Shown one piece after another: positions 1 to 2,868 of a stretch of 64,000 bases of DNA. The position numbers and the translations under genes were made by a program. Each line of letters starts with the position of its first letter. Position 1 is the first letter of the stretch. Under the pieces are notes generated by a model. The model was not told the DNA's origin, made no database searches, and saw only the letters and a list, made by a program, of their open reading frames with translations. Source of the DNA: Deltaproteobacteria bacterium (GTDB lineage: Bacteria > Desulfobacterota > Desulfobacteria > Desulfobacterales > B30-G6); the NCBI GenBank assembly GCA_022340465.1, contig JAJDNW010000066.1, positions 1-64,000 on the forward strand, read 5' to 3'.

Positions 1-7
1 ATGGAGA
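1..7. repeat. Left flanking direct repeat ATGGAGA
   Basis: Heptamer abutting the left terminal inverted repeat and identical to 2185-2191. It may be the recombination core or target duplication of the element. It could extend beyond the window edge. Confidence 0.55.
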
Positions 8-22
8 TAAGACGTAACAAAA
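8..22 (+). repeat. Left terminal inverted repeat
   Basis: TAAGACGTAACAAAA. It matches the reverse complement of 2170-2184 at 14 of 15 positions. The inner 11 bases, ACGTAACAAAA, are identical. Confidence 0.75.
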
Positions 23-110
23 GTTGATTTTTCTATTATAATTAGTCGGTTATCTGCTTATAGCTTGCCCCTTATTCTGGTGGTTGTCAAGCACTAATTT
101 AACCTGGGCA

Positions 111-1034
111 TCATCCAGGTTCAAGAGGATGAACCGGCAATGGCAATGGCTGCTCAGAGCGTTGCAGAACATTGCGCATTGCTTTGAAGTAGTCCCGCTG
201 CACCTTTAAATTCGATACCTTACAATACCGCTGGGTCGTCGTGATCCAGTTGTGACCCAAAAGATCCTGGATGGTTTCGACTTCCGCCTCCGCATTCAGC
301 AACTGGGTAGCCATGGTATGCCGCAAACGGTGGCAGGATACTTCAATGCCGGTCTTCTTTGCATAATATTCTATTCGTTTTTGAATGCCGCGAACAGAGA
401 TCGCCTTCCCTTTATAGGCCCCTTTCTCAACCAAGAAAACGTTTTTGGAACGGTAATGAGAACGGAACTTCAAGTAGGCATTTAATGCATCGAGAGCATC
501 GCTGCTGATATAAACCACACGATCTTTGCCGCCTTTTCCTTGCTGAACCATGATCCTGCGGCGTTTGAGATCAATAGCGCCCATGGTCAGGTTGGCTACT
601 TCCTCCACACGCAGCCCGCATCTGAGCATCAACTTGAACATGGCTATATCGCGGTTACTCTTGATTGATTCGAACAGCTTTTCGACCTCATGATCACGAA
701 GGCTTCTCGGCAAAGGCTTAGGTACACGCAGACGGCGGTTACGTTTCACAGGGTTGATGAGGTCCACATTCTCCTCATGCTTCAAATAGTCGTAGAATAC
801 CCTGATGATGGTGATGTAGAGGTTGATGCTCGCCGGATGCATCCTCTTTCTGAGAAGGTAATCAATGTAGGTGTCTACCTTGTCTGAAGTCGCGTCCTCA
901 AGCGTCACATCCAGCCAGACTACATACTGCTTGATGATGTTCAGATAGTATTTGACCGTATGCTTGGAGAAATTCCGGCGTTTCAGGTGCCTTCTAAAGT
1001 TAATAATCACATGCGTCATCTGCATCGGGATCAC
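111..1034 (-). CDS. Tyrosine recombinase (downstream gene of tandem pair)
   Basis: Site-specific recombinase of the phage integrase/XerC-XerD type, 307 residues. An N-terminal SAM-like core-binding domain covers roughly residues 10-90 and the catalytic domain roughly 110-285. The full catalytic set is visible: Arg142 in LRCGLRVEEV, a Lys in GKGGKDR near 167-170, His235-x-x-Arg238 in CHRLRHT, His261 in LLGHNW and the nucleophile Tyr270 in TTQRYC. Nothing looks disabled. The start overlaps the end of the upstream recombinase by 35 bp, so the two are probably translated from one message. A slightly later ATG in the same frame (MQMTHV) is also possible. The pair presumably mobilises the element that surrounds it. 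Confidence 0.93.
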   Translation of the reverse strand: MIPMQMTHVIINFRRHLKRRNFSKHTVKYYLNIIKQYVVWLDVTLEDATSDKVDTYIDYLLRKRMHPASINLYITIIRVFYDYLKHEENVDLINPVKRNRRLRVPKPLPRSLRDHEVEKLFESIKSNRDIAMFKLMLRCGLRVEEVANLTMGAIDLKRRRIMVQQGKGGKDRVVYISSDALDALNAYLKFRSHYRSKNVFLVEKGAYKGKAISVRGIQKRIEYYAKKTGIEVSCHRLRHTMATQLLNAEAEVETIQDLLGHNWITTTQRYCKVSNLKVQRDYFKAMRNVLQRSEQPLPLPVHPLEPG

Positions 1035-2094
1035 CTCTCAAGATACGCTCCATGGCCATAAAATATTCGTTTTCCCTGGTTTTATCAGAAAGACGGGCAT
1101 ATATCCTGGTGACCTCCAGGTTGGTATGCCCCAATAGAACACGCAGACATTCCAGTGGCATCCTTGCGTTCAAAAGCTCCGTTGCAAAGGTATGCCGTAG
1201 ACAATGAAGCGTATACCCACTGTATTCCAAACCCGCTTTCTTTAAATACTTGACGAAGATGCTGCGGGCGGTCTCATAGCATAGGTGACCATCACCGCGA
1301 CCATAGAACAGGTATTCCTTGAAGGTGTTCCTGACCTGGAGCCAAGACATAAGGGCTTCGCGTGCATCGTCACTGTAGTAGGCAACTCTGCCGACACCGG
1401 TCTTGTGGGCTTCATAAATCAGTATCCTGTTATTGTTCAGATCCAAATCATGCACTTTTGTATTCAACAGCTCGCCGATGCGCATGCCGGTTCTCAGCAA
1501 AAGCAGGATCATGGCCCGGTCGCGAACCTGGTCAATTGCGGACAATATTCGTTTTACATCTTCAGGGTCGATGGCCCGTGGCAGGCGGTCGGGTAGCCTG
1601 ATTCTGATTTTCCTTTCCAGAAGTTCGTAGCCCAGAACTTTAGCCTCAATTAAAAATCGTACAAACGCATATACCCATCGAAGCCTGTTGGTCACTGTCA
1701 CGGGCTGTAGCCCACGATCCTGGAGATCTTCCGTAAAAGCCTCGATATCCTCTCTGTCCATTTGCTCAATGTGATTCTTGCCTGATTTACCGTAGAAGGA
1801 CAGAAACTGCTTCAGTGAAGTGGCTGCGTTTCTTAGGGTGTTGGTCTTGCAGTTGAGGCGATATCGTTCACGCATATAGCCTGCAAAATGTTCTTTGGCA
1901 GAAAAATCCATGAATGATACTTCTTTAAGGATCTTTTCAAGGACTTTAAGCCGTGGAGAGATCTTTTCCGGGGCAGTTTTGGGCTTTTCTGCGATGAGAT
2001 GGAAGGGATGGTCGCCAAAAACGCCGTGAAGATCCAATGGATGGCAACCGTGAAGCCGATTTGGGTTGATATTCTGTAACTGGTCTCTGTGCAT
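1000..2094 (-). CDS. Tyrosine recombinase (upstream gene of tandem pair)
   Basis: Phage integrase family recombinase of 364 residues. An N-terminal extension of about 60 residues precedes the core-binding domain (about 63-155) and the catalytic domain (about 175-350). Catalytic residues are Arg205 in RTGMRIGEL, Lys231 in the beta-hairpin, His297 and Arg300 in HCLRHTFAT, His323 in LLGHTN and Tyr332 in TRIYARL. A strong ribosome binding site (AAAAGGAGG) lies just before the ATG at 2094. It is the first gene of the element, close to the right inverted repeat, and overlaps the next recombinase. The two proteins are clearly different in sequence, so this is a heterologous pair rather than a recent duplication. 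Confidence 0.93.
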   Translation of the reverse strand: MHRDQLQNINPNRLHGCHPLDLHGVFGDHPFHLIAEKPKTAPEKISPRLKVLEKILKEVSFMDFSAKEHFAGYMRERYRLNCKTNTLRNAATSLKQFLSFYGKSGKNHIEQMDREDIEAFTEDLQDRGLQPVTVTNRLRWVYAFVRFLIEAKVLGYELLERKIRIRLPDRLPRAIDPEDVKRILSAIDQVRDRAMILLLLRTGMRIGELLNTKVHDLDLNNNRILIYEAHKTGVGRVAYYSDDAREALMSWLQVRNTFKEYLFYGRGDGHLCYETARSIFVKYLKKAGLEYSGYTLHCLRHTFATELLNARMPLECLRVLLGHTNLEVTRIYARLSDKTRENEYFMAMERILRGDPDADDACDY

Positions 2095-2169
2095 ATCTAC
2101 CTCCTTTTCTACTTTTAATAGAAAAATCAGTTAGATATTGCACTTAAACCATTTAAGCGTCAAATATCA

Positions 2170-2184
2170 TTTTGTTACGTTTTA
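2170..2184 (-). repeat. Right terminal inverted repeat
   Basis: TTTTGTTACGTTTTA on the plus strand, the inverted partner of 8-22, followed at once by the direct repeat ATGGAGA at 2185-2191. Confidence 0.75.
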
Positions 2185-2191
2185 ATGGAGA
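2185..2191. repeat. Right flanking direct repeat ATGGAGA
   Basis: Heptamer identical to 1-7, directly outside the right inverted repeat. Together the two copies would be the attL/attR core or a target duplication. Confidence 0.55.
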
Positions 2192-2868
2192 CCATCGTGC
2201 CTTTTCGCGCGTGAAAATAACTTTTTCCGATGTATGTTATCACCACCAGTGTTGGATAATGCAACATACTGATACCATACCCAACGACAGCATATCAACT
2301 CCGCAAAATTTTAGCCCCCACCCTTCCGCCTTGAACATATGCCCATGGCGTATCTTTAAATTAAGTCGGCGTGCAAGACGAGATGAGATGGTTAGATAAC
2401 GCCGGGAACAAACCCGGCAATCTGCTAATGTATTTATTTTTATATCGCCTAAATGTTTTCATAACAATTCCTGCCAATAAAACATGGCATTACCGGCGGA
2501 TTGTATACGGTAAAGTCAAGTTGGCACAGCATGATGATTACGGGCAACCATGCGGCTATAGGAATGCCGATGATTCCATTCATTTTGTTTGCTTTGGTTT
2601 CCGGAATTTATATGGATCGAAAGAAAAAAAGAGGAAAATCCTGCCTTTGATTCATGGCATATGTAATTAGATCATGTTGCTTTTGGCTATATCTCAAATA
2701 GTTACTTGTGTTCAAGTATACTGGATGTATGTATTGGGCCTTTAATTGAACATAATCTATAAGCATTTCTAAAACCTTCAATACCGCATGGTAGCAAAAA
2801 ATTCATCAAATTTTTTACAAGATTAAGGTGATAGTTTTAACCTATCGTAAAACAATCAATGCGCACAT
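2192..2868. other. AT-rich stretch with no convincing large gene
   Basis: About 680 bp of AT-rich sequence. It holds a short G+C hairpin at 2401-2418 (GCCGGG/CCCGGC, loop of 6, no following T tract), one possible 39-residue membrane ORF (2531-2650), and otherwise nothing I can assign. Confidence 0.5.
2531..2650 (+). CDS. Possible 39-residue single-pass membrane protein
   Basis: A short reading frame beginning MMITGNHAAIGMP. It has a hydrophobic segment at about residues 12-28 (PMIPFILFALVSGIY) followed by a strongly basic tail (DRKKKRGK). This layout is typical of very small inner-membrane proteins with a cytoplasmic basic end. No good ribosome binding site precedes the ATG, so translation is doubtful. 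It lies alone between the recombinase element and the next small gene. I do not recognise a family. Confidence 0.25.
   Translation: MMITGNHAAIGMPMIPFILFALVSGIYMDRKKKRGKSCL

Follow-up and report, generated by a model that had tools for sequence, protein, structure and literature searches.

A cargo-free pair of tyrosine recombinase genes bounded by 7-bp direct repeats in Desulfobacterota: a candidate variant of tyrosine-recombinase transposon

Tyrosine recombinases exchange strands at the borders of a short overlap, and equal flanks are to be expected only if the overlaps of donor and target match. ICE/Tn916-like elements recombine at a core-type site with a 6–7-bp overlap, use one integrase together with Xis, carry large cargo and have unequal coupling sequences. 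XerC and XerD, two paralogous recombinases, act at dif, where inverted arms lie about a short spacer, and this host system is not mobile. The bipartite module (BIM) consists of a recombinase and a second, conserved non-recombinase protein. RIT elements contain adjacent, overlapping tyrosine recombinase genes, three in number (ritA-ritB-ritC) where fully annotated, between terminal inverted repeats and without cargo; those that we measured, in a plasmid collection, were 3,399–3,493 bp long, had terminal repeats of 28–51 bp and showed no evident 7-bp direct repeat where these repeats end. Tn554 has two tyrosine recombinases, imperfect terminal inverted repeats, a short core and TnpC, and both SE and Tn554 combine one ordinary with one large recombinase and show 6-bp flanks that derive from donor and target (PMC3414803; PMC10214605). 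SE and GInt elements have two or three recombinases, arranged in four-gene modules (intA-tfp-intB-srap or ginABCD), plus cargo (PMC10214605; PMC5385486).

Here we describe an element of 2,177 bp with two tyrosine recombinase genes, R1 and R2, and no cargo, which occupies positions 8–2184 of a 64,000-nt stretch of DNA (the window), the first 64 kb of contig C66 in a Deltaproteobacteria bacterium assembly of 4.39 Mb and 162 contigs. Its features, and those of the adjoining flank, are as follows.

1–7: 7-bp direct repeat ATGGAGA (TCTCCAT in gene orientation), outside the right end of the element
8–22: right-end (gene orientation) copy of the outer inverted repeat, TAAGACGTAACAAAA; presumed to serve as a core-type recombinase arm
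25–45: inner inverted repeat, right end, 2 bp off the outer box; presumed accessory recombinase site
111–1034, minus strand: tyrosine recombinase R2, 307 aa when translated from GTG, with the ATG at 1025 as the probable conserved start
1000–2094, minus strand: R1, tyrosine recombinase, 364 aa, overlapping the start of R2
2109–2129: left-end (gene orientation) copy of the inner inverted repeat, about 40 bp off the outer box and lying between R1 and the putative promoter
2135–2140, minus strand: putative -10, CAATAT
2158–2163, minus strand: putative -35, TTGACG, 17 bp from the -10
2170–2184: left-end (gene orientation) copy of the outer inverted repeat, TTTTGTTACGTTTTA on the plus strand
2185–2191: second copy of the 7-bp direct repeat ATGGAGA
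2185–2332, plus strand: target-side dispersed host repeat starting at the heptamer, with six copies in the genome and others in the genus

A preliminary description had reported two overlapping, catalytically complete tyrosine recombinases within near-perfect 15-bp terminal inverted repeats, with ATGGAGA on both sides and no third recombinase gene. Each of these points was confirmed: all six catalytic positions are present in both proteins, the outer repeats agree at 14/15 positions, the heptamer is found at 1–7 and 2185–2191, and R1 and R2 are the only genes between the ends, in the window as in the complete relatives. A longer inner inverted repeat (25–45 versus 2109–2129; 19/21 identical) had been overlooked. 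Since base 1 of the contig is also the first base of the left heptamer, the left flank of this copy is missing, and the case for the window element therefore rests on its relatives; a search of the assembly gave neither a second copy of the element nor another contig with the same end.

R1 and R2, whose genes overlap by about 25–35 bp depending on the choice of the R2 start, each comprise a Phage_integrase catalytic domain (PF00589) and an N-terminal SAM-like core-binding domain. The catalytic set R-K-H-R-H-Y (XerD 148/172/244/247/270/279) is present in both and invariant across 15 sequences of each. The nearest NCBIfam models are XerA, XerC and XerD, every one below its cut-off, and invertase models show weak similarity to both proteins. 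The closest relatives of solved structure are archaeal XerA/XerC-like proteins and XerD, and Foldseek adds a match to Tn1549 Int. Since the Foldseek hits had high rmsd and confidence in the AlphaFold models was middling (mean pLDDT 74–76), we used them solely to assign a predicted Xer/integrase fold. In a small tree with four RitA, three RitB and four RitC proteins as references, R1 and R2 are each monophyletic and form sister clades (99/96) outside RitA, RitB and RitC. The R1 and R2 trees have broadly similar branching orders, which fits one ancient duplication followed by joint descent, the exact placement being limited by long branches and few outgroups. Of the stops reported for some relatives, the sole one within an aligned stretch lies at the R2 C-terminus of one element (L064), and this gives no sign of recoding.

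The idea, put forward in the preliminary description, that the element is a minimal relative of RIT elements found no support. It has two genes rather than three; it and its relatives measure 2.0–2.4 kb; short outer and inner boxes take the place of the long RIT terminal repeats, to which they are unrelated in sequence; a 7-bp direct repeat borders the ends; and in the small tree RitA, RitB and RitC each form a clade of their own, to none of which R1 or R2 belongs. In contrast to Tn554, both recombinases are of ordinary size, TnpC is absent and the flanks are mostly equal; in contrast to SE and GInt elements, of which the SEs resemble it in having inverted repeats and a core of about the same length, the element has no Tfp/GinC, Srap/GinD or other gene. 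The inverted arms, unlike those of the host Xer system, belong to a transposon, and both genes match PF00589, which leaves no place for the non-recombinase partner of a BIM. What the element does share with tyrosine-recombinase elements in general is the R-K-H-R-H-Y set and inverted arms about a 6–8-bp spacer, here of 7 bp, both for the element arms and for the target half-sites. Considering that the defining features of RITs are missing and that Tn554, SE and GInt elements need further proteins, we regard the R1/R2 element, on its sequence anatomy, as a seemingly undescribed variant of tyrosine-recombinase transposon and not as a cut-down RIT. RITs may nevertheless work on a similar principle.

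The evidence from relatives is comparative, and most of the genomes concerned are MAGs. About 30 related elements (2.03–2.42 kb), mainly from Desulfobacterota, have the same gene order, boxes and left–right asymmetry and carry no cargo. Searching GTDB contigs with R2 yielded 29 loci, mostly in Desulfobacterota MAGs, some records being labelled Nitrospirota or FCB group; whole-genome searches recovered R2 from 24 of the 389 genomes that were sampled in the class, and R1 from 11 of the 395 that were sampled in the phylum. R1/R2 elements thus seem fairly common. Wherever both genes and both flanks were available the order was R1–R2, both ends were recognizable in most, and no three-gene form occurred among the complete relatives, all of which carry two genes. 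Plasmid relatives of R1 and R2 were all below 60% identity, and viral contigs held relatives at 26–34% only, with no close family member found. Three elements of one genus (L064, L065 and L067, in genomes G083, G106 and G134) have ends that are degenerate or could not be found, and are possibly decaying insertions. Literature searches, in which subscription journals were poorly covered, gave no two-recombinase element of this kind, and the family, tentatively, seems undescribed.

The ends are organized alike across the family. At each end an outer box, conserved as CTRTACGTAACAAA or TAARACGTAACAAA, adjoins the 7-bp spacer. At the left end (in gene orientation) the outer box CTRTACGTAACAAA, or TAARACGTAACAAA in the group of the window element, is followed by a promoter pattern and, about 40 bp inside, by the inner box TCTGATTTTTCTATT; a ribosome site and R1 come next. 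At the right end the inner box lies 0–3 bp from the outer box; this asymmetry is conserved among relatives. The promoter pattern is sigma-70-like, TTGAC-N17-CATTAT or similar (TTGA(C)-N17-(C/T)ANNAT), and a simple pattern search recovered it at the same position in 17/28 elements. The two ends probably owe distinct identities to the inner boxes and their unequal spacing, which may also allow the recombinases to act on the R1 promoter (autoregulation); we infer both roles, in end recognition and in autoregulation, from the arrangement.

A perfect 7-bp direct repeat stands exactly at the outer boxes in 21/28 measurable elements, where the chance of a 7-mer match at a fixed place is 4^-7 = 6e-5. 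A further perfect pair was read by hand in L232. Imperfect heptamers occur in 7/28 elements, among them L031, in which they become perfect once the border is moved by 2 bp; hence heptamer identity has exceptions, or some of the copies are old. Within an element the heptamers mostly agree, and they differ between lineages (TCTCCAT, CTACTAT, CTGCCTT, CTTGCCA, TATTCTC, CATGCAG and others), so that the expectation of the same ends in other copies with variable 7-bp flanks was borne out in the roughly 30 relatives, and the earlier reading, a two-recombinase element with defined ends and a 7-bp core, is supported. In genome G207 two 2,096-bp copies with zero differences have unrelated flanks, and both are bordered by CCTGTAC. 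Similarly, a relative in another family (L009), 85% identical in DNA to the window element at the left end, also carries TCTCCAT, next to an unrelated flank, and CTTGCCA recurs at unrelated sites in the divergent elements L024, L027, L237, L037 and L008. Across the family, heptamer and element similarity are weakly correlated (r = 0.24, permutation p = 0.002), a result that leans on few pairs. We also observed that L091 has CTTGCTA instead of CTTGCCA on one side, and that a GATAG-CTTGCCA motif is present in the left flank of the host repeat at G000:C44:873.

In a de Bruijn assembly, a contig starts with the first base that several contexts share. The contigs of L028 (at its start) and L090 (at its end) stop within 2 bases of their heptamers, and the window contig starts exactly at its own. 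Such breaks fit an element and heptamer shared by several contexts and are suggestive, but no more than that, of a second copy or a circle. The pattern of a circle junction was absent from viral contigs, a collection without close family members.

When the flanks are joined, inverted half-sites appear about the heptamer (GATWN-N7-NWATC): 79/114 half-site positions match GAT/ATC versus 31 expected (maximum 48 in 5000 shuffles), an excess that is somewhat flattered, the scored positions having been picked after viewing the same flanks. Dispersed host repeats make up several of the targets. Uninterrupted counterparts of the G156 target, with one TATTCTC and both sides intact, are present at six loci in the same family (L195, L197, L201, L202, L203 and L206); for L020/L021, a diverged uninterrupted copy with the heptamer CTGCTAT lies in L021; and for the window element, a sequence search of its own genome located an uninterrupted GATAC-ATGGAGA-CCATC on contig C102. 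The five other copies of the 2185–2332 repeat are at G000:C102:511, C44:873, C44:25563, C59:20870 and C20:69601. Most copies have different left sides, and three are situated no more than about 0.8 kb from tRNA genes; apart from these tRNA genes, scanning the flanks with Rfam and for tRNAs turned up nothing that explains the repeat. A second repeat adjoins the first at 2340–2491 and is 82% identical to G000:C118:8521–8673, in reverse orientation. The expectation that empty sites carry the heptamer once stands in so far as single-heptamer uninterrupted copies were found, but these are paralogous repeat copies and not the empty locus itself in a sister strain; searches for orthologous empty sites of the G207 and G266 elements found none.

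Considering this anatomy, we suggest that R1 and R2 probably act as a pair, by analogy with XerC and XerD, and that they would bind the outer boxes and cleave at the two edges of the 7-bp spacer. Joining of the ends would yield a circle with the junction TTTGTTACGTAYAG-N7-CTRTACGTAACAAA, a classical core site, which would then recombine with a chromosomal GATWN-N7-NWATC whose 7 bp match those of the circle. Because the overlap would have to match, a lineage would tend to keep its heptamer and be led to sites that carry it, here often repeats. The element would thus work like an IS with the chemistry of Xer or of a phage integrase. We consider it quite probable that the window element is an intact, minimal, autonomous, IS-like transposon, moved by the R1/R2 pair through conservative recombination in which the 7-bp overlap must match the target.

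Perfect 7-bp repeats that vary between elements do resemble ordinary target-site duplications, made by a staggered cut of an unmatched target and gap filling, as by DDE transposases, perhaps after copy-out. Yet the element encodes no DDE or HUH enzyme, the target carries inverted half-sites like a recombinase core, and the same heptamer is found at both loci of the identical G207 copies and at unrelated sites of relatives (the window element and L009; the five CTTGCCA elements), so that we hold a duplication to be unlikely. About equally improbable in our estimation is a strand-biased or mismatch-tolerant movement, as in SE, Tn554 and Tn916, which would leave the 6–7 bp of the donor on one flank and those of the target on the other. 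The minority of unequal heptamers (L012, L029, L030 and L093) would suit it, and SE and Tn554 likewise have two recombinases and imperfect inverted repeats (PMC10214605); against this, flanks are mostly identical, as expected only where donor and target already match, and the element, with no further gene, has no counterpart of TnpC/Srap or Tfp.

That the element is a reduced RIT, which has lost one of three recombinases, appears very unlikely: the overlapping recombinase genes between terminal inverted repeats do recall RITs (PMC3414803), but R1 and R2 are sisters outside RitA, RitB and RitC (in a small sample with long branches), size and terminal repeats differ, and the complete relatives all have two genes, with no three-gene form seen. 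The weak similarity of both proteins to invertase models might also be taken to mean that the two genes encode a resident regulator or DNA invertase, surrounded by repeats through chance. This we find hardly credible, since conserved ends, flanking repeats and uninterrupted sites all point to movement, and identical copies at different loci already contradict it.

Returning to a transposon moved by matched overlaps, many copies of the target repeats have just one half in common, the break falling precisely at the heptamer. Halves could have been exchanged between such sites by the same or related recombinases; alternatively, the half-sharing repeats could be the ends of other mobile units. In the G156 family (L194–L207) we observed short interspersed repeats at GATAN-N7-NTATC-like sites, with left and right halves occurring separately and breaking at the heptamer, and in L205 a pair of such half-sites, one on each strand, is separated by about 150 bp. 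It is conceivable, though on balance doubtful, that the elements form a separate class of minimal transposon, with R1 and R2 as a heteromeric pair, a 7-bp overlap that can change between lineages, and enzymes (or those of earlier relatives) that also recombine the dispersed GATWN-N7-NWATC repeats of the host in trans. Such recombination, if true, would explain the left-only and right-only halves that break at the heptamer.

Finally, RIT elements posed the problem of how four strand cuts are divided among three recombinases (PMC3414803), and the widespread R1/R2 family would offer a simpler system in which to address it, with two enzymes, 2.1 kb, no accessory gene, clear ends and overlap, and readable targets. 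If the overlap must indeed match, each of these elements would be a small, site-guided integrator, and its own sequence would reveal its target.
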